Source of the DNA: Clostridia bacterium
GTDB taxonomy: Bacteria > Bacillota > Clostridia > Oscillospirales > Butyricicoccaceae
Assembly (NCBI GenBank): GCA_017407765.1
Contig: JAFQVZ010000302.1
Span: forward strand, 1 to 10,251
Length of the DNA: 10,251 nucleotides
Reading direction: 5' to 3'
This document shows positions 1,324 through 7,818 of the stretch, one piece after another (position 1 is the first letter of the stretch; the number at the start of each line of letters is the position of its first letter). Both the position numbers and the translations under genes were made by a program. The notes below the pieces were generated by a model. It made no database searches and had not been told where the DNA came from. It saw only the letters and a list, made by a program, of their open reading frames with translations.

Positions 1324-1920
1324 TTATTCCTTTCCAAACTTCTGAACAAAGCTTATCACCTGAGATGAAAGAGTCACCGTTATCAGCGAATAAAAAATCC
1401 TTCTGAACGGGATATAAGTAAGTGAAAGGCTCAGCACCAGCAGATCGGTGAACATATATGCCCATGCTATGTCGACCTTCATCACCTTGGATATAGTCAT
1501 GGCAAGAGCATCATCTCCTCCCGCAGCACCGCCTATGCGAACACACAATCCTACACCTACTCCGACGAATAAAGCGCCAACAAACGCTGCCATCAGCGGA
1601 TATGGAGTAAGGTCGGGCATGATATATCCCACAGTTTCAGCAAGGCGGTAGTTGACCGAAAATCCAAGGCTTGCCGCAAGCGAATACCTGGCAAAGTCCC
1701 AGCCGAGGAAACGAAAGCCTACAGCATAGCAGCTCAGGTCAAGGACGATATTGGTCACAGACGGCGACCATCCGAACCAGTTTTCAAGAAGCAGGACCCC
1801 GCCCAGAACTCCGCCTTCGGTGACGGCACACCTTGCATGTATGTTAAAAAGCCCGAATGACAATATGAATGTACCTATATAGATTATCAGATAATTGCGC
1901 ATTTCACGCTTTATATTCAA
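1324..1920 (-). CDS. YitT-family (DUF161) multi-pass membrane protein, short form
   Basis: This 198-residue integral membrane protein belongs to the YitT/DUF161 family, whose transport or signalling role is not established. Hydrophobic segments are visible at about residues 10-27, 36-50, 55-74, 108-127, 151-170 and 177-194. The family's glycine-rich motifs are present: 'TEGGVLGGVLLL' (34-45) and 'GGAAGGDDALA' (130-140). Many Firmicutes YitT proteins are near 280 residues and carry a cytoplasmic C-terminal DUF2179 domain. Here the protein ends right after the last membrane helix, so that domain is absent. I chose the TTG start at 1918-1920 because AAGAAGGGA sits five bases upstream of it; the in-frame ATG six codons later has no ribosome binding site. 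A consensus promoter lies just upstream. The gene is monocistronic and convergent with the topoisomerase gene. Confidence 0.85.
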   Translation of the reverse strand: MNIKREMRNYLIIYIGTFILSFGLFNIHARCAVTEGGVLGGVLLLENWFGWSPSVTNIVLDLSCYAVGFRFLGWDFARYSLAASLGFSVNYRLAETVGYIMPDLTPYPLMAAFVGALFVGVGVGLCVRIGGAAGGDDALAMTISKVMKVDIAWAYMFTDLLVLSLSLTYIPFRRIFYSLITVTLSSQVISFVQKFGKE

Positions 1921-2580: not shown

Positions 2581-2603
2581 ACGGCCCGAAAGGGCCGTTT
2601 TTT
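2581..2603 (+). terminator. Intrinsic terminator of the amidase gene
   Basis: ACGGCCC (2581-2587) pairs perfectly with GGGCCGT (2592-2598) across a GAAA tetraloop and is followed by a run of T to 2603. It lies six bases past the amidase stop codon. Confidence 0.92.
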
Positions 2604-2615
2604 CATTGCTTACGG

Positions 2616-2629
2616 TGAATATTTATTCG
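2616..2629. promoter_or_regulatory. ARG-box-like palindrome upstream of the LysR promoter
   Basis: TGAAT-ATTT-ATTC-G differs by one base from the half-site arrangement of ArgR/AhrC boxes (TGAAT-WWWW-ATTCA), and GAATA/TATTC forms a perfect dyad. It lies 23 bases upstream of the -35 box of the LysR gene. No arginine gene is nearby and AT-rich palindromes arise by chance, so ArgR binding is only a possibility. It could equally be an upstream LysR recognition site. Confidence 0.22.
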
Positions 2630-2652
2630 CGCATCACTATCTCAAGATCAAG

Positions 2653-2681
2653 TTGACTTCCGTTAAGCAAAAAGTTATGAT
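2653..2681 (+). promoter_or_regulatory. Sigma-A promoter of the LysR-family gene
   Basis: TTGACT (2653-2658), a 17-base spacer and TATGAT (2676-2681) give five of six matches in each box. The start point is expected near 2688, about 35 bases before the ATG at 2723. Confidence 0.82.
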
Positions 2682-2695
2682 ATTTACAATAACTT
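2672..2695. promoter_or_regulatory. Inverted repeat over the -10 box, possible autoregulatory operator
   Basis: AAGTTAT (2672-2678) and ATAACTT (2689-2695) are perfect inverted arms ten bases apart. The left arm overlaps the -10 box at 2676-2681, and the right arm covers the expected start point. A protein bound here would block the promoter. LysR-type proteins often repress their own genes, so the product of the 2723 gene is the natural candidate. The site also fits no terminator, since no strong T-run directly follows the right arm. Confidence 0.45.
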
Positions 2696-2722
2696 AATTT
2701 TTAGGTAATACGGAGGTTTATA

Positions 2723-3601
2723 ATGACAAGCCGCAATCTTGAAATATTTGTTGCTGTTGCCGAATACGGCAAAATGAGTCTTGCCGCACGCCATCTTTAT
2801 ATAACTCAGTCTTCGGTGAGCCAGGCTATCTCCGAGATCGAGAAGGAATACGGAGTCCTTCTCTTCGAGCGCCTTTCACGCAGGCTTCACCTTACCGACA
2901 CAGGCCGCGACTTTCTTGAATATGCAAAAAAGACCCTTGCCCTTCAGCAGGAGATGGATAATTTTCTTCGCGACACCTCCCACCGCAAAAAAGTCCGTAT
3001 CGGAGCGACTCTCACAGTCGGCGCCAGCGTAATAAGCCCCATTATAAGCCGCCTTAAGGCAATCGACCCTGATATCATGCCTGAGGTGACCGTTGCCAAC
3101 ACCCATATTATTGAGGAAAAGCTGCTAAGGAGCCAGCTTGATATAGGTTTTGTTGAAGGCATGATAAAACACCCCGATATCATCGTCGAGCATGTTATGG
3201 ATGACGAAATGACCTTTGTCTGCGGACCGGGTCACCCCCTCTACGGACGAACTTCCATTTCTATCAAAGAGCTTGACGGCATGCCACTCATACTGCGAGA
3301 ACATGGAAGCGGCACACGCTCGCAGGTGGAAACAGCCATGAAGACCCACCATCTCGAGCTGAACTCGCCCTGGGAGTGCAGCACGGCCGATGCCATTATC
3401 AGCGCCGTCATGCACAGCCATGCCGCAACTATAATCTCTCACCGACTTGTTCGGGAGCATGCTGAAAACGGCCTCGTCTGGAGCTGCCCTATTCCCGATG
3501 TGGATTTTAACCGCTCATTCTCTCTTGTATACCATAAGGACAAGCTTATAACCGCAGCAATGGCTCAGTTCATGAAGGTATGCCGCAATTTTGAGCATTG
3601 A
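2723..3601 (+). CDS. LysR-family transcriptional regulator, possibly sulfur-responsive (CysL/CbbR-like)
   Basis: This is a full-length (292-residue) LysR-type regulator, a cytoplasmic DNA-binding protein that usually acts as a tetramer and senses a small molecule. The N-terminal winged helix-turn-helix spans about residues 1-60, with the recognition region 'ITQSSVSQAISEIEKEYG' (27-44), 'LLFER' (46-50) and 'LTDTG' (57-61). A linker helix follows to about residue 88, then a two-lobed effector domain from about 90 to 290 that begins 'KVRIGATLTVG'. The effector domain carries 'LREHGSGTR', a segment I associate with CysL/CbbR-type LysR proteins; CysL activates sulfite reductase genes in Bacillus subtilis. 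The ATG at 2723 has GGAGG six bases upstream. Its position directly upstream of, and in the same direction as, the flavoprotein and siroheme reductase genes suggests that it controls them. The family is certain; the target and ligand are inferred. Confidence 0.9.
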   Translation: MTSRNLEIFVAVAEYGKMSLAARHLYITQSSVSQAISEIEKEYGVLLFERLSRRLHLTDTGRDFLEYAKKTLALQQEMDNFLRDTSHRKKVRIGATLTVGASVISPIISRLKAIDPDIMPEVTVANTHIIEEKLLRSQLDIGFVEGMIKHPDIIVEHVMDDEMTFVCGPGHPLYGRTSISIKELDGMPLILREHGSGTRSQVETAMKTHHLELNSPWECSTADAIISAVMHSHAATIISHRLVREHAENGLVWSCPIPDVDFNRSFSLVYHKDKLITAAMAQFMKVCRNFEH

Positions 3602-3611
3602 TCCCCGATTT

Positions 3612-3636
3612 AACATTAGCTTTTACTAATGTTTTT
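3612..3636 (+). terminator. AT-rich hairpin with T-run after the LysR gene; could also be a LysR operator
   Basis: AACATTAG (3612-3619) pairs perfectly with CTAATGTT (3626-3633) across a six-base loop, followed by T to 3636. It begins ten bases after the LysR stop and would work as a modest terminator. The same sequence, ATTAG-N6-CTAAT, satisfies the T-N11-A dyad rule of LysR boxes (T3617, A3629). It sits 35 bases upstream of the next gene's likely -35 box, so it may also or instead be a regulator-binding site. Confidence 0.6.
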
Positions 3637-3653
3637 CTGTAGATAATTTGTAG

Positions 3654-3682
3654 TTTAAAAATACATCCATCGGTGGTATTAT
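3654..3682 (+). promoter_or_regulatory. Likely promoter of the flavoprotein-siroheme reductase operon
   Basis: TTTAAA (3654-3659) and TATTAT (3677-3682) are separated by 17 bases. The -10 box is good (five of six) and the -35 box weak (four of six), a pattern common in promoters that need an activator such as a LysR protein. The expected leader is about 55 bases. I saw no S-box, T-box or other riboswitch fold in 3602-3742. Confidence 0.5.
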
Positions 3683-3742
3683 TAAAGTAATTATGTTCCC
3701 TTTTTAATCCAGCCTATTTTTCGATAGAAAGGACGATTTGAA

Positions 3743-5374
3743 ATGAAGATCCTCATTATCGGCGGTGTTGCCGCCGGCACAAAGACTGCGGCCAAGCTCA
3801 AGCGCGAAGCTCCCGATGCCGAAGTCACAATCATCACAAAGTCTGCCGACATCTCCTATGCAGGCTGCGGCCTCCCCTATTATGTAAGCCAGGTCATCGA
3901 GCATCGCTCCGAGCTGTTTGTAAACACTCCCGAGAGCTTTGAAGCCCTGACCGGTGCAAAGATCATCAACGAGACCGAAGTTACTGCCGTAGACCGCGCA
4001 AACAAGACGGTCACTGCCGTTTCGAGATCGGGCGAGACCTCCACACACAGCTATGACAAGCTGGTCATCGCAGTAGGCGCCTCGCCTATCGTCCCCAACT
4101 GCGAGGGCGTTGACCTTGAGAACGTATTCTATATGGGTTCTCCCGAAGATGCCGATAAGCTGAGAGCAGCCGTTGACTCGGGCGAGATCAAGCGTGCAGT
4201 TGTTGTCGGCGCAGGCCTTATCGGCCTCGAGGTCGCCGAGAACCTTAATCACCGTGATGTTAAGACATCGGTCATAGATATTGCACCTCAGATCCTCCCC
4301 AACCTGCTCGATGCCGAAATGGCAGGCTATCTCGAGAATGTGATCGCCGGCGAAGGCATCATGCCCTTCACAGGAGTTGGCCTTGAAGCTATCCTCGGCG
4401 AGACAAAGGTCGAAAAGGTCAAGACAAGCAAGCGCGCCATGAAGGCCGATGCATGCATCCTCGCCCTCGGCTTCCGCCCCAACACAGCCTTCCTCGCAGA
4501 AAGCGGCCTTGAAATGATCAAGGGTACCCTGGTCGTAAACGAATATATGCAGACAAACGACCCCGATATCTATGCCTGCGGCGACTGTGCCATCGTAACA
4601 CACCGCGTGACCGGCGCACGCCGCTGGTCGGCAATGGGCTCGACAGCCAATATCTGCGGCAGACTGGCCGCAAGAAGCATCGCCGGCAAGAACTCGACAC
4701 CCTACCCCGGCGTTCTCAGCACAGCAGTTGCCAAGATGCCCGGCATCAACTTTGCCCGTACCGGCCTTGGCGAGAAGGAAGCCATCGAGTGCGGCTATGA
4801 TGTCGAAACTGTTATCACGGTTTCCGACGACAAGGCTCATTACTATCCCGGCTCCAACCCCTTCATCATCAAGATGATCGCCGACAAGGCCACACACAAG
4901 CTGCTGGGCCTTCAGGTATTCGGCAAGGGCAATGTAGATAAGATCGTCGATGTAGCCGTTACAGCCATCTCCCTCGGCGCTGTTCTTGAAGACCTGCAGT
5001 ATTGCGACTTTGCATACGCTCCCCCCTTCTCTACAGCCATCCATCCCTTTGAAACAGCCGTCAATATCCTGCTCAACAAGCTTGAGGGCGAATATGAGAC
5101 CATCACTCCCGCTCAGCTCATGCGCGGCGAGCATGAGGGCTACCGCATCGTCGACACCTCCATCCAGCCTCAGCTCAAGGCTCACCCCTACATCGAGCTG
5201 ACAAAGGTAAACGGCGAAGTCGAAGGCTTCGGCAAGGACGAAAAGCTCCTGCTGGTCTGCAACAAGGGCAAGCGCGCTTACCTGCTGCAGAACCGCCTGA
5301 AGCACTATGGCTACACCAACACACGCGTTCTCGAAGGCGGCACCACCTTCAACACAAGCCTTCTTGAAGACTGA
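3743..5374 (+). CDS. FAD-dependent CoA-disulfide/persulfide reductase with C-terminal rhodanese domain
   Basis: This 543-residue cytoplasmic flavoprotein matches the CoADR-RHD type (CoA-disulfide reductase, NAD(P)H-dependent polysulfide/persulfide reductase). Such enzymes use NAD(P)H to reduce CoA disulfide or CoA persulfide and polysulfide, releasing thiol or sulfide. The FAD-binding start is 'ILIIGGVAAGTKTA' (3-16). The single redox cysteine of this family is C42 in 'SYAGCGLPYY'. The NAD(P)H Rossmann motif is 'VVVGAGLIGLEVAENL' (153-168), the second FAD motif is 'DPDIYACGDCA' (273-283), and the dimerisation domain carries 'YAPPFSTA' (425-432). A rhodanese domain fills about 452-543, with the active-site loop C506-N-K-G-K-R511-A. 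It lacks a recognisable GHIPGA-type segment and is compact, but the sulfur-carrying cysteine is kept. AAAGGA at 3728-3733 supports the ATG. The siroheme reductase gene follows after 41 bases with no terminator between, so the two are probably co-transcribed. The gene contains no TTA, CTA or TCA codons, indicating strong codon bias and perhaps high expression. Confidence 0.9.
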   Translation: MKILIIGGVAAGTKTAAKLKREAPDAEVTIITKSADISYAGCGLPYYVSQVIEHRSELFVNTPESFEALTGAKIINETEVTAVDRANKTVTAVSRSGETSTHSYDKLVIAVGASPIVPNCEGVDLENVFYMGSPEDADKLRAAVDSGEIKRAVVVGAGLIGLEVAENLNHRDVKTSVIDIAPQILPNLLDAEMAGYLENVIAGEGIMPFTGVGLEAILGETKVEKVKTSKRAMKADACILALGFRPNTAFLAESGLEMIKGTLVVNEYMQTNDPDIYACGDCAIVTHRVTGARRWSAMGSTANICGRLAARSIAGKNSTPYPGVLSTAVAKMPGINFARTGLGEKEAIECGYDVETVITVSDDKAHYYPGSNPFIIKMIADKATHKLLGLQVFGKGNVDKIVDVAVTAISLGAVLEDLQYCDFAYAPPFSTAIHPFETAVNILLNKLEGEYETITPAQLMRGEHEGYRIVDTSIQPQLKAHPYIELTKVNGEVEGFGKDEKLLLVCNKGKRAYLLQNRLKHYGYTNTRVLEGGTTFNTSLLED

Positions 5375-5415
5375 TCCAGACATTCAAACAGATCACATAA
5401 AGGAGAAATATACTT

Positions 5416-6363
5416 ATGGCAAATCTTACACCCGAAGTAAAAAAGGCTCTTAAGGGCCGCGGCTATGTCATCACAAACGATGGCGAGCATTTTATCGCAA
5501 GAGTAATCACAGTTGACGGCACACTGACAGCCGAAGAGATGAACAAGCTCTCGGAAGCTGCCGTCAAGTTCGGCAACGGCACAGTTGCCATGACATCCCG
5601 TATGACAGTCGAAGTCCAGGGCATCCCCTATGAGAATATCGAGGCTTTTGACGAGTTCATCGGCGAAGCCGGCCTCTACACAGGCGGCACAGGCGCACGC
5701 GTCCGCCCCATCGTTCCCTGCAAGGGCACAGTCTGCATCCACGGCCTCATCGACACACAGGCTCTGGCACGCGAGCTGCACGAGACCTTCTATAAGGGCT
5801 GGTATGATGTCAAGCTGCCCCACAAGTTCAAGATCGGCGTTGGCGGATGTCCCAACAACTGCATCAAGCCCGGCCTGAATGACTTCGGCATCATGGGCCA
5901 GCGCGTTCCCGAGTATGAGCAGGACGACTGCATGGGCTGCAAGAAGTGCGGCGTTATCGACGTCTGCCCCATCAAGGCTGCTTCTATGAACGAAGATGGC
6001 GTTATGGAGATCAACAAGGACCTCTGCAACAACTGCGGCAAGTGCATCGATGCATGCCACTTTGACTGCATCTCTGAGAAGAAGGTCGGCTATAAGATCA
6101 TGGTCGGCGGTATCTGGGGCAAGCGCCAGCGCCTGGCTACAGTTATCGACGAGGTCTATACAAAGGAAGAGCTCTTCAAGATGGTCGAGAAGGCTCTGCT
6201 GCTCTATCGTGAGCAGGGCGAGACCGGCGAGCGCTTCGGTATGTTCATCGAGCGTATCGGCACAGAGAACTTCATCGCTCAGCTGAAGAGCGACGATGTC
6301 CTTGAGCGCAAGGAAGCTATCCTCGCAGCTGATCTGCATACAAACAGCAAGGCTACCTGCTAA
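5416..6363 (+). CDS. Small siroheme/4Fe-4S sulfite (or nitrite) reductase with two ferredoxin clusters, AsrC-like
   Basis: This 315-residue one-subunit reductase belongs to the nitrite/sulfite reductase superfamily and resembles AsrC; it would reduce sulfite to sulfide (six electrons) or a similar oxyanion in the cytoplasm. The ferredoxin-like half-domain (about 15-85) ends in 'TSRMTVEVQGI', with R62 a likely substrate-site arginine. 'TGGTGARVRPI' (89-99) follows. The siroheme-linked 4Fe-4S ligands appear to be C102 and C107, then C145 and C149 ('GGCPNNC'), with K137 and K139 of 'LPHKFKI' matching the lysines that contact sulfite in this superfamily. An inserted two-cluster ferredoxin has C172-C175-C178-C184-P and C204-C207-C210-C214. 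The first cysteine pair is CX4C rather than the usual CX5C. AGGAG at 5401-5405 lies ten bases before the ATG. No asrA or asrB gene is present, so the upstream flavoprotein or a free ferredoxin may supply electrons. TTA, CTA and TCA codons are absent up to at least 6339. Substrate is not proven by sequence; the fold is. Confidence 0.87.
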   Translation: MANLTPEVKKALKGRGYVITNDGEHFIARVITVDGTLTAEEMNKLSEAAVKFGNGTVAMTSRMTVEVQGIPYENIEAFDEFIGEAGLYTGGTGARVRPIVPCKGTVCIHGLIDTQALARELHETFYKGWYDVKLPHKFKIGVGGCPNNCIKPGLNDFGIMGQRVPEYEQDDCMGCKKCGVIDVCPIKAASMNEDGVMEINKDLCNNCGKCIDACHFDCISEKKVGYKIMVGGIWGKRQRLATVIDEVYTKEELFKMVEKALLLYREQGETGERFGMFIERIGTENFIAQLKSDDVLERKEAILAADLHTNSKATC

Positions 6364-6378
6364 GCTTAAAACAAAACC

Positions 6379-6405
6379 AAAGGCTCCCCTCGGGGAGCCT
6401 TTTTT
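6379..6405 (+). terminator. Strong intrinsic terminator of the sulfur operon
   Basis: AAAGGCTCCC pairs with GGGAGCCTTT (10 bp, 6379-6388 with 6393-6402) across a CTCG tetraloop, with a T-run to 6405. It lies 15 bases after the siroheme reductase stop and separates that unit from the 6472 gene. Confidence 0.93.
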
Positions 6406-6471: not shown

Positions 6472-7818
6472 ATGGCTGTTAATATAGAGATCCCCTTTGA
6501 TCCCGATAATATGCCCGATCTTTCGATCGCGGCTCTTGCCGCCTTCGAAAACCTCAGCTACGGCACATTAGACCAGAACTATTGCCTTCAGATCGGGGTG
6601 ACCGGCGATCACAACGTCCTCTACAGCGAAGAACGCATAGGACGCGGCTTTGACCTCACCGTCGAGTTCGACCATATCCATATTTCCCTCGCCCTGCCCA
6701 ACACTCCTCATGATATCGAACTGGCCTATCGCTTCACCCTTAAGCTGTGCGAATACACCGGCACCGACAGCTTCTTCCGTGACAATGAAGAGATTTTTAT
6801 TGATGAAGCCCAGGGCCTTGTTACTCTTGACCTACAAGCAAGCATAAATGCCATGAACAAGATGGCAGGCGACGTTATATCGGGCGAAAAGGACAATATG
6901 GGCGTTTTCGGCGCTCTCTATCCCATCTTTCTCGGCCGCAAAGAGCTTGAGCTGGTGGGCGGCACCCTTCAGGGCCTCGAGGAATACCTACATGCGGTTC
7001 AGGCAACCGACATTTTCTATGCCGGTCCCCGATTCTATAAAATGAAAAGCGGCGATATCGTCGGCCTTTACTTTGTTGGTGAAAACATAGAGACTGTTAT
7101 CCCAACAAATCCCCTCCCGCCCTTCTATAAGATGGACGATGTAAGAGCCTACTATGTTCACCTGCCCGACGCCATAAACGTGCCTTTCGAGGCCGTGATC
7201 AACCATGTGCGTGATGCCGATTTCTTCGACTTCAACCACATCAGGATAAAGCTGGATGCCCATGATATTGCAAAACTGGCGGGCGAAAGTGCAGTGGATC
7301 TCAATACCGGCGACCCTATAGAAGTAAAATACTGGGGCAAGCCCTTTGACAACGGATTTGACCATCTCCATAAGATCCATGAGATGAGACTGATGACCCC
7401 CGAGCTGTCGGCATGGAGCCATCTTGCAGTATTTCTGCGCTGGAGCTATGAAAAAGGCCTGCTCAGCCAAGCCCTGCTGGAGGCTCTGCCCGAGCTTCCC
7501 GAGATCATAGAGAGCAGGACCGTCGACCTCAGAAGTATAATCTGCGAGAATCCCGTATTCGGCGGAGGACTCAAGACAATGCATTTTTCCGACGAGGCTC
7601 TGCCCTTTGTAAAGAAGTTTTATTCTTTCAGCAATAACGGTTTCCCTGCCTGCGTCGACGCTCACGCAGAGGCAGTCCTCGGCAGCATCAAATACCACTG
7701 CGCCGAATATCAGAATGAAGCCTATCTCTTTGTCCCCTATGGCGAGGCCTTTCACGAAGGTCTCGCAGCCTATATCGAAAAGGCATGGGACGAGTTTAAT
7801 TCAGATAAACAGAAATAA
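6472..7818 (+). CDS. Uncharacterised 448-residue cytoplasmic protein, immunity/DUF-like architecture
   Basis: I do not recognise a function. The protein is soluble and acidic, with no signal peptide, membrane segment or catalytic signature. It seems to have two parts. Residues about 30-240 include 'GRGFDLTVEFDHIHISLAL' and alternating strands and helices that weakly recall DUF4299-type proteins. Residues about 285-405 include 'WSHLAVFLRWSYEKGLLS' (315-332), which resembles the helix block of DUF7832-type domains ('HIGMFLAWCI..GLIS' pattern). Such domains often occur among polymorphic-toxin immunity and stress proteins. Both likenesses come from memory of motif patterns and could be wrong. AAGGAG at 6456-6461 lies ten bases before the ATG. 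The peptidase gene begins 19 bases after the stop with no terminator between, so the two are probably one operon. Codon use looks like that of its neighbours, and nothing suggests recent transfer. Confidence 0.8.
   Translation: MAVNIEIPFDPDNMPDLSIAALAAFENLSYGTLDQNYCLQIGVTGDHNVLYSEERIGRGFDLTVEFDHIHISLALPNTPHDIELAYRFTLKLCEYTGTDSFFRDNEEIFIDEAQGLVTLDLQASINAMNKMAGDVISGEKDNMGVFGALYPIFLGRKELELVGGTLQGLEEYLHAVQATDIFYAGPRFYKMKSGDIVGLYFVGENIETVIPTNPLPPFYKMDDVRAYYVHLPDAINVPFEAVINHVRDADFFDFNHIRIKLDAHDIAKLAGESAVDLNTGDPIEVKYWGKPFDNGFDHLHKIHEMRLMTPELSAWSHLAVFLRWSYEKGLLSQALLEALPELPEIIESRTVDLRSIICENPVFGGGLKTMHFSDEALPFVKKFYSFSNNGFPACVDAHAEAVLGSIKYHCAEYQNEAYLFVPYGEAFHEGLAAYIEKAWDEFNSDKQK

Follow-up and report, generated by a model that had tools for sequence, protein, structure and literature searches.

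Siroheme salvage may feed a coenzyme A-disulfide reductase-rhodanese and siroheme reductase pair in Clostridia

Introduction

How does a bacterium that apparently cannot make siroheme supply an enzyme that is built around it? This question is raised by a 10,251-nucleotide stretch of a draft Clostridia genome (contig JAFQVZ010000302.1 of assembly GCA_017407765.1; the whole stretch is called the window below), in which a LysR-type regulator gene is followed by genes for a coenzyme A-disulfide reductase-rhodanese flavoprotein (CoADR-RHD) and for a siroheme protein (SIR). The latter is the one NIR_SIR protein that a profile search found in the host draft genome (1.76 Mb, 378 contigs, 83% complete). 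As a rule, each cell is taken to make its own siroheme. The answer that we prefer, with a probability of roughly 0.6, is that siroheme salvage feeds a two-protein, NAD(P)H-linked sulfite/thiosulfate reductase. Our analysis covered gene content, conservation, gene fusion, co-distribution, and the phylogenetic clade of an importer permease.

CoADR-RHD and SIR are conserved neighbors and natural fusion partners

The original prediction described three adjacent co-directional genes, and Pfam domains establish them as real:

2723..3601, plus strand: LysR-type regulator (PF00126 and PF03466)
3743..5374, plus strand: CoADR-RHD flavoprotein, 543 amino acids (Pfam domains)
5416..6363, plus strand: SIR, siroheme/[4Fe-4S] reductase with a two-cluster ferredoxin insert, 315 amino acids (Pfam domains)

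The pairing of the latter two genes, defined as CoADR-RHD within 700 bases of SIR, turned out to be conserved in related genomes, contrary to the refuting condition set with the original prediction. Of 77 named loci, 63 show it, 6 of them as a fusion of both into one protein of approximately 860 amino acids. The named loci are what remains of the best 80 of at least 586 confirmed stretches once two duplicates (L072 and L073, on the contigs of L032 and L034) and L139, which comes from the genome of L138, are removed; the divergent SIR loci L068 to L071 (at most 35% identity) were left out of the counts as well. A second set comprised 36 family genomes with a good SIR match, not counting the window, which brings the SIR genomes to 113. 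This sample is biased toward relatives of the window's SIR, and the wider SIR family (3721 proteins) lies outside the count. The coupling between flavoprotein and SIR that had originally been proposed thus gains adjacency and fusion in its favor, while pairing is sparse in the family genomes (9 of 36, including 2 fusions).

The fusions are not confined to the counted loci. A search with the SIR part of a fused protein yielded 2901 proteins, and the 120 matches listed all carry SIR and flavoprotein domains; most of these have 860 amino acids and some are shorter, probably partial, with named sources among the matches listed being Blautia, Hominisplanchenecus, Ruminococcus sp. 5_1_39BFAA, "Lachnospiraceae bacterium," and "Clostridia bacterium." In databases, the fused CoADR-RHD-SIR is annotated as "FAD-dependent oxidoreductase," and no NCBIfam model reaches its cut-off in the three fused proteins tested. 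Both flavoprotein cysteines described below are kept in the fused proteins, and their SIR domains are intact by Pfam. Through conserved adjacency and natural fusion, coupling is well supported by genomics, which lends strong support to the proposal that CoADR-RHD and SIR form a working partnership. No paper naming CoADR, rhodanese, sulfite reductase, and siroheme together was met in a search that left subscription papers and preprints aside, and among the matches listed for three of these four terms, none mentions CoADR. The enzyme is a new combination of known parts.

In three loci (L129, L137, and L145), the CoADR-RHD or SIR frames are split in two, through sequencing errors or decay; a 561-amino-acid open reading frame (ORF) of L129 comprises the last part of CoADR-RHD together with SIR. 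Furthermore, the CoADR-SIR pair recorded for Clostridioides difficile strain 173070 (L079) lies on a 9.5-kb contig, and contamination of this assembly is possible.

Conserved residues and the proposed chemistry

In CoADR-RHD, Pfam identified Pyr_redox_2 (197 bits), the dimerisation domain (57 bits), and a Rhodanese domain (24.2 bits against a cut-off of 22.2). The two cysteines that the original prediction had singled out, a CoA-disulfide reductase cysteine and a rhodanese sulfur carrier, were both confirmed: C42 (codon 3866-3868) lies in the FAD/NAD(P)H disulfide-reductase domain and C506 (codon 5258-5260) in the C-terminal rhodanese domain. They are invariant among the aligned SIR-linked relatives, paired or fused and with the window included: C42 is found in all 68 rows that cover its position and C506 in all 69 (a single row does not extend over C42; duplicate sequences and those of at most 480 amino acids had been removed). 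The protein therefore combines the FAD/NAD(P) domains, the rhodanese domain, and both active cysteines by which CoADR-RHD/NPSR enzymes are recognized, and it scores below the cut-offs of the CoA-disulfide reductase models TIGR03385 (384.6 against 578.8), PRK09564 (365.6 against 458), and PRK13512 (238.4 against 394).

The description of the second protein as a siroheme protein with its own two-cluster ferredoxin holds as well, as NIR_SIR (108.4 bits) and NIR_SIR_ferr (42.5 bits) both exceed their cut-offs and the ferredoxin clusters are present (C172, C175, C178, C184, C204, C207, C210, and C214). In 15 aligned SIR sequences, the siroheme-cluster cysteines C102, C107, C145, and C149 are invariant, as are the basic residues R62, R97, K137, and K139, which align with those of the F420-dependent sulfite reductase (Fsr); the C102/C107 spacing is C-X4-C, one residue shorter than the C-X5-C of Fsr (an alignment gap). 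Among solved structures, SIR scores highest with the sulfite-reductase half of Fsr (134 bits), followed by DsrB with 54 bits or less. From these similarities, we infer that SIR reduces sulfite. AsrA/AsrB partners, which had been described as missing, were not seen by eye among the window ORFs and scanned proteins, to which this search was confined. In-frame TGA codons occur in some SIR homologues, on both strands, and the idea of selenocysteine was dropped; the one plus-strand case (L021) lies at the very end of the match.

Our reading of substrates and electron path is as follows. CoADR-RHD would oxidize NAD(P)H and pass the electrons on to FAD and C42/CoA, from where they would reach SIR directly or via its ferredoxin insert, while C506 of the rhodanese domain would carry sulfane sulfur. 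The rhodanese domain would split thiosulfate into a protein persulfide and sulfite, the CoADR half would reduce the persulfide, and SIR would reduce the sulfite to sulfide at its siroheme. We favor thiosulfate reduction because it is the simplest division of labor that makes use of both invariant cysteines. A precedent is found in passages of PMC5497025, in which a rhodanese and an anaerobic sulfite reductase serve as a thiosulfate route in Halanaerobium.

The regulator gene suggests a link to sulfite. The best family score of the LysR protein is to the YeiE model NF040889 (183 bits, below the cut-off of 480), and a relative of the PF03601 (YeiH-type) protein of L119 is encoded within 6 kb of SIR in 17 of the 77 named loci and in none of the 36 family loci. 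According to the available passages of PMC12880088, YeiE of Salmonella binds sulfite and drives YeiH for sulfite resistance. The LysR regulator is thus probably sulfite-responsive and would control CoADR-SIR. The arrangement of LysR together with an adjacent CoADR beside SIR, which the original prediction regarded as one module, was recovered in 41 of the 77 named but only 7 of the 36 family loci (LysR within 6 kb).

These sulfite-related features also fit the nearest alternative, in which the pair would reduce plain sulfite only, with C506 or CoA acting as a DsrC-like sulfur acceptor and CoADR freeing sulfide from the resulting persulfide or trisulfide. YeiH-type neighbors, a YeiE-like LysR, and the invariance of C506 are all compatible with it, whereas the splitting of thiosulfate by a rhodanese acting with a sulfite reductase has its precedent in Halanaerobium. 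We regard this alternative as a tentative second choice, less probable than thiosulfate reduction.

Siroheme synthesis is mostly missing or incomplete where an importer adjoins SIR

The genome-wide searches for siroheme synthesis comprised HemB, HemC, CobA, SirC, and CbiK, with CbiX-type chelatases (PF01903) not included; the later searches (HemC, SirC, and CbiK among them) covered 79 chosen genomes, namely the HemB-negatives known by then and HemB-positive controls. Within the window's genus, HemB was found in 0 of 7 genomes and CobA exceeded its cut-off in 0 of 7, while HemC and CbiK were each found in 0 of 7 genomes. SirC was detected only in G058 and in the window's own genome (G000), where it is a fragment at a contig end. 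In 14 control genomes, the same searches exceeded their cut-offs in 11 for each of HemB, CobA, and HemC, in 9 for SirC, and in 2 for CbiK. Lacking HemB, HemC, CobA, and CbiK, and with only a partial SirC, the window's genome therefore shows no route to siroheme, and the species and genus are apparently unable to make it.

In relatives, SIR is frequently accompanied by a FecBCD-type importer, consisting of a substrate-binding protein (SBP; PF01497), a FecCD permease (PF01032), and an ABC ATPase, as assigned by Pfam on L034 and L043 and by similarity at other loci. Within 6 kb, a FecCD match of at least 200 bits or an SBP match of at least 150 bits was scored as presence of the importer, which in L078 and L121 rests on the binding protein alone. 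In G058 to G062 and G086, LysR, FecCD permease, ABC ATPase, CoADR-RHD, and SIR form one co-directional series, with the binding protein divergent from LysR in 4 of these 6 genomes (G060, G061, G062, and G086); in the sisters G058 to G062, the FecCD at the SIR locus is the sole FecCD of the genome. Another order (SIR, binding protein, FecCD, ATPase) is found in G069 to G071, G077, and G078, although the contig of G071 ends inside FecCD, and the named loci show yet more importer-SIR gene orders. In the one SIR-less sister compared, G057, FecCD is limited to fragments at the ends of contigs, which score 60-98 bits against the references. We propose that in relatives this dedicated importer, encoded in the same operon, would supply siroheme or, in genomes that have kept SirC or CobA, a late precursor of it.

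In nine loci (L076-L078, L081, L084, L087, L095, L105, and L151), some of them on short contigs, SIR has an adjacent importer and no CoADR-RHD beside it. Thus, the importer goes with SIR and not with the flavoprotein.

The distribution of the importer follows the loss of siroheme synthesis. Across the 113 SIR genomes, from which the window is excluded, an adjacent importer was present in 30 and absent in 10 HemB-negative genomes, compared to 1 with and 72 without among HemB-positive genomes (Fisher p 1e-17, kinship ignored). For the 69 loci flanked by at least 4.5 kb in each direction, the respective numbers are 10 with and 4 without, and 1 with and 54 without. When independent pairs were drawn from a quick SIR tree, with HemC counted as evidence for the pathway and importers elsewhere in the genome counted, 8 pairs were supported, of which 7.7 agree on average (median p 0.008, range 0.008-0.07). 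Under strict adjacency and with HemB as the sole pathway marker, 10 pairs were obtained, of which 6.6 agree and 3.4 show no difference (median p 0.016, range 0.008-0.125). Furthermore, HemB status was predicted beforehand for additional loci: absence held for 8 of 9, failing for L130, and presence held for 24 of the other 30.

Most of the 10 HemB-negative genomes without an adjacent importer can be accounted for. Three of them (G040, G090, and G157) have HemC, so their lack of HemB is likely an assembly gap, and four (G095, G098, G124, and G152) carry an importer of the permease clade described below on another contig or across a contig break. In total, an importer was found in 34 of the 38 SIR genomes that lack both HemB and HemC, 32 by permease and 2 (G093 and G136) by just a neighboring binding protein. 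The remaining four are G000, which is the window's own, and G127, G147, and G153. None of HemB, HemC, CobA, SirC, and CbiK was found in 19 genomes, and 18 of these have the importer, all by permease.

Siroheme-pathway tetrapyrroles as the importer's candidate substrate

In six loci (L076, L081, L082, L084, L087, and L097), SirC and CobA continue the importer operon, and all six genomes lack HemB and HemC. SirC was classified by family in L082, L084, and L097, and CobA occurs as a CobA-HemD fusion in L081, L082, and L084 and alone in L097; for L076 and L087, both genes were placed by the coordinates of their matches. A SirC-like gene within 6 kb of SIR was also found in L116, L117, and L146, where HemB is present and there is no adjacent importer.

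In a permease tree of 64 rows, all 29 SIR-linked permeases fall into one clade of 33 (Shimodaira-Hasegawa-like approximate likelihood ratio test support 98, quick method, midpoint root). The other four members (L161, which lies beside SirC, L163, L167, and L177) are those that resolve the four importer exceptions. Six permeases linked to B12 riboswitches lie outside the SIR-linked clade, and a seventh, L170, branches near it. Scanning 21 SIR-linked loci with Rfam (8 more that have a permease and 2 that have just a binding protein lay beyond the scan), we found no cobalamin riboswitch, compared to 7 with one among 27 comparison loci, of which L167 and L194 carry an importer of the clade. In L170 (4645-11724, minus strand; genome G136), a cobalamin-riboswitch operon encodes CbiM, CbiK, and a tetrapyrrole methylase, followed by a FecBCD importer, and the genome lacks HemB, HemC, CobA, and SirC. 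CbiK acts on sirohydrochlorin. An importer that follows it would therefore most simply supply sirohydrochlorin, and the operon looks like one for B12 synthesis from imported sirohydrochlorin. Two further FecCD importers, both from G146 (L185 and L186), are placed next to the SIR clade and share their gene clusters with further ABC genes; the permease gene of L186 is followed by one for a CobW-type GTPase.

The predicted structure of the binding protein (mean predicted local distance difference test score 85.9) and the fold search based on it did not settle the ligand. R205, K212, K214, and K303 (L043 numbering) are invariant or nearly so in 31 sequences, and these basic residues are compatible with a polycarboxylate ligand. 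Taken together, the operons with SirC and CobA, the permease clade, the lack of a riboswitch, and L170 point to siroheme-pathway tetrapyrroles as the substrate. Judging by gene content, the imported compound would be of uroporphyrinogen type where CobA and SirC are kept, sirohydrochlorin where CbiK or SirC is kept, and siroheme where there is none of them. On balance, we lean slightly toward the wider proposal that many gut and digester Clostridia without siroheme synthesis, which retain a siroheme sulfite/thiosulfate reductase that is frequently paired or fused with its NADH-flavoprotein, possess a dedicated siroheme importer, the substrate of which would have shifted down the pathway as auxotrophy deepened.

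Weighing siroheme salvage against its alternatives

Several observations weigh against siroheme salvage feeding the CoADR-SIR pair. At the window locus itself, neither a binding protein, FecCD, or ATPase gene nor remnants of these were found, with the surrounding gene order as in the sisters, and no FecCD was found anywhere in the window's assembly. As most genomes compared are metagenome-assembled genomes (MAGs), single absences are weak. Six of the 30 loci predicted to be HemB-positive were HemB-negative (L112, L121, L132, L137, L138, and L143), although L121 had been flagged beforehand for a binding-protein fragment, and the pathway-lacking G127, G147, and G153 showed no importer of the clade among the FecCD loci compared, with 1 of 4 G153 matches left out. 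Additionally, G145 (L130) is the only genome with HemB, HemC, CobA, and SirC plus a SIR-linked importer, reflecting either a recent importer gain or the use of both supply routes. Moreover, CoADR enzymes perform two-electron thiol chemistry, and to our knowledge, one-electron delivery from them to an Fe-S protein has not been established. Adjacent CoADR partners missing from most family genomes and the nearest relatives of the binding protein belong to the same side and are considered below.

With respect to the window's own gaps, it is possible that the importer has been relocated, since G058 carries a binding protein together with SirC on another contig (L160), and the SirC gene of G000 is cut at a contig end (L159). 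The same contig end, along with a completeness of 83% and the 378 contigs, leads to the question of whether the missing importer and biosynthesis simply reflect an incomplete or misassembled MAG. We consider this doubtful, as the locus is contiguous and syntenic with the sisters (Amidase_6, LysR, CoADR, SIR, and the genes labelled YitT and gyrA) and free of importer remnants, and as the SIR-bearing sisters G060 to G062, at 98% completeness, likewise lack HemB, HemC, CobA, SirC, and CbiK.

A different objection concerns the partnership rather than the cofactor. CoADR-RHD, as a persulfide/CoA-disulfide reductase, and SIR, fed by ferredoxin, could work separately within one sulfur-stress regulon. 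SIR has its own two-cluster ferredoxin, and passages of PMC7969121 describe NPSR-type CoADR-RHD as an independent enzyme that alone reduces persulfides with NADH; SIR also occurs without an adjacent CoADR in 27 of the 36 family genomes, in which SIR outside the genus is mostly 45-53% identical, and in 14 of the 77 named loci, some of them on short contigs. Separate work would hardly account for the natural fusions, in which both flavoprotein cysteines are kept and the SIR domains are intact, and it therefore seems unlikely to us.

Two further alternatives concern the importer. It might take up an iron-siderophore and thus supply an iron-rich enzyme, as SIR needs several Fe-S clusters and most of the solved proteins closest to the binding protein bind siderophores or ferric citrate (FeuA in the profile search, HtsA and FecB in the fold search), while those that bind heme or B12 rank lower. 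This is improbable, as iron supply explains neither the near-exclusive link with the loss of HemB and HemC nor SirC and CobA in the operon. Least probable of all is a cobalamin (BtuFCD) system from the same superfamily, whose link with missing HemB would be trivial, since HemB loss removes B12 synthesis too, and whose proximity to SIR would be due to chance or co-regulation: B12 transport was rejected as the principal explanation by the Rfam scan against the comparison loci, and neither the six riboswitch-linked permeases outside the clade and the seventh in an operon with CbiK, nor SirC and CobA in six operons, nor the recurrence of SIR proximity in several gene orders agrees with it.

Should siroheme salvage be confirmed, part of the gut community would need siroheme from cross-feeding in order to produce sulfide, siroheme would become a traded cofactor like B12 and heme, and anyone predicting gut sulfite and thiosulfate reduction from genomes would have to weigh supply besides gene presence. 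The importer's substrate would be new as well; exact phrases for siroheme uptake, transport, or salvage were met only in the accessible part of a paper on a fungal siroheme mutant, with subscription papers and preprints outside the search. Furthermore, one polypeptide combining NAD(P)H oxidation, a persulfide-carrying rhodanese, and a siroheme center would represent a compact new sulfide-making architecture.

Gene neighborhood and transcription signals of the window locus

The intergenic regions contain the following features:

2581..2598, plus strand: terminator-like hairpin after the upstream gene Amidase_6, forming the upstream border of the set (pattern scan)
2653..2681, plus strand: promoter-like site of the LysR gene, TTGACT-17-TATGAT (pattern match only)
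3612..3633, plus strand: A+T-rich hairpin followed by a T run, between the LysR and flavoprotein genes (inverted-repeat listing)
3654..3682, plus strand: promoter-like site of the flavoprotein gene, TTTAAA-17-TATTAT (pattern match only)
6379..6402, plus strand: terminator-like hairpin at the end of the CoADR-SIR pair, with a minus-strand score as well (pattern scan)

Two flanking intrinsic terminators had been proposed for the three genes. The hairpins at both borders were recovered, each with 6 G-C pairs, the top number among the scanned sites, but an additional hairpin and promoter-like site set the LysR gene apart. The hairpin at 3612..3633, which is not among the sites given by the terminator scan, is a possible terminator of LysR, and in combination with the promoter-like site at 3654..3682 it suggests that LysR and the CoADR-SIR pair are perhaps two transcripts. 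It is thus more accurate to speak of a LysR gene and, after it, a CoADR-SIR pair. It is worth noting that the window contains 21 terminator-like sites compared to 10.0 in shuffles and 19 promoter-like sites compared to 8.3; single sites are weak evidence because this is only approximately twice the shuffle background.

A perfect inverted repeat from 2672 (7-bp arms, 10-bp gap) overlaps the -10 element of the LysR promoter-like site and is a candidate autoregulatory operator of LysR; another repeat, AATAC-N11-GTATT from 3660, overlaps the promoter-like site of the flavoprotein gene. In 38 divergent LysR-CoADR gaps of relatives, the dyad ATAG-N7-CTAT occurs in 22, compared to 0.4 expected from mononucleotide shuffling, a count that is inflated by kinship. 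This dyad is absent from the window's own LysR-CoADR gap, in which the other inverted repeats are candidates only. With the LysRs of G058, G059, and G061, whose mutual identity is 78-86%, that of the window shares only 60%, while its SIR is 85-93% identical to theirs, and the LysR promoter region differs too. The window's regulator seems to have diverged along with the loss of the importer, although the LysRs of G060 and G062 are similarly divergent, with SIR at 76% there.

Upstream of LysR, a 176-amino-acid Amidase_6 protein (2044-2574) keeps its position in several sister genomes. The module is followed by a 448-amino-acid protein (6472-7818) that contains the domains DUF4299 and DUF7832 and matches no NCBIfam model; a shorter relative of it (40% identity) is encoded at the equivalent position in L032. 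The remaining genes, labelled from reading the sequence with no family search, are presumably gyrA (1-1272), YitT (1324-1920, minus strand), and an M16 peptidase (7838 to the end). No viral relatives were found in a scan of viral contigs.

Comparison with known systems

The SIR-linked importer is built from the same parts as BtuFCD and FecBCD (PF01497, PF01032, and an ABC ATPase). It differs from them by its separate permease clade, by the lack of a cobalamin riboswitch where examined, and by its linkage to SIR and siroheme genes. The salvagers of tetrapyrrole precursors described in PMC6461909, mostly Firmicutes, likewise lack the early tetrapyrrole genes; this work concerns cobamides, and in the accessible part of its main text, the word siroheme is absent and no importer is named.

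For the flavoprotein, the NPSR/CoADR-RHD structures 8a56, 6pfz, 3icr, and 3nta match over the full length, with both cysteines in common. The window-type CoADR-RHD is distinguished by being paired or fused with a siroheme reductase, and siroheme goes unmentioned for NPSR in the available passages of PMC7969121.

The module order of the pair, flavoprotein followed by siroheme domain, is that of NirB, the large subunit of NADH-nitrite reductase, in which both are part of one protein. The window's two proteins match separate parts of the NirB model TIGR02374 with 160 and 62 bits (cut-off 578). Unlike NirB, SIR has a two-cluster ferredoxin insert, and we know of no rhodanese in NirB. AsrC (TIGR02912) resembles SIR over residues 10-289, but SIR scores 95.8 bits, far below the cut-off of 324.1. 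Passages of PMC3448663 assign the same cluster set as in SIR to group III of the Dsr-LP proteins, which includes AsrC.

The closest likeness is to Fsr of methanogens (7npa and 7np8), the C-terminal half of which matches SIR residues 21-291 and has a siroheme cluster, a two-cluster ferredoxin insert, and matching basic residues. Only Fsr residues 348-613 match SIR significantly, the N-terminal F420H2-oxidase half having no counterpart in it. Fsr likewise joins a flavoprotein partner to a sulfite reductase; while this partner is an F420H2 oxidase in Fsr, that of SIR is a CoADR-rhodanese, which by family would use NAD(P)H, and the two are usually encoded by separate genes.

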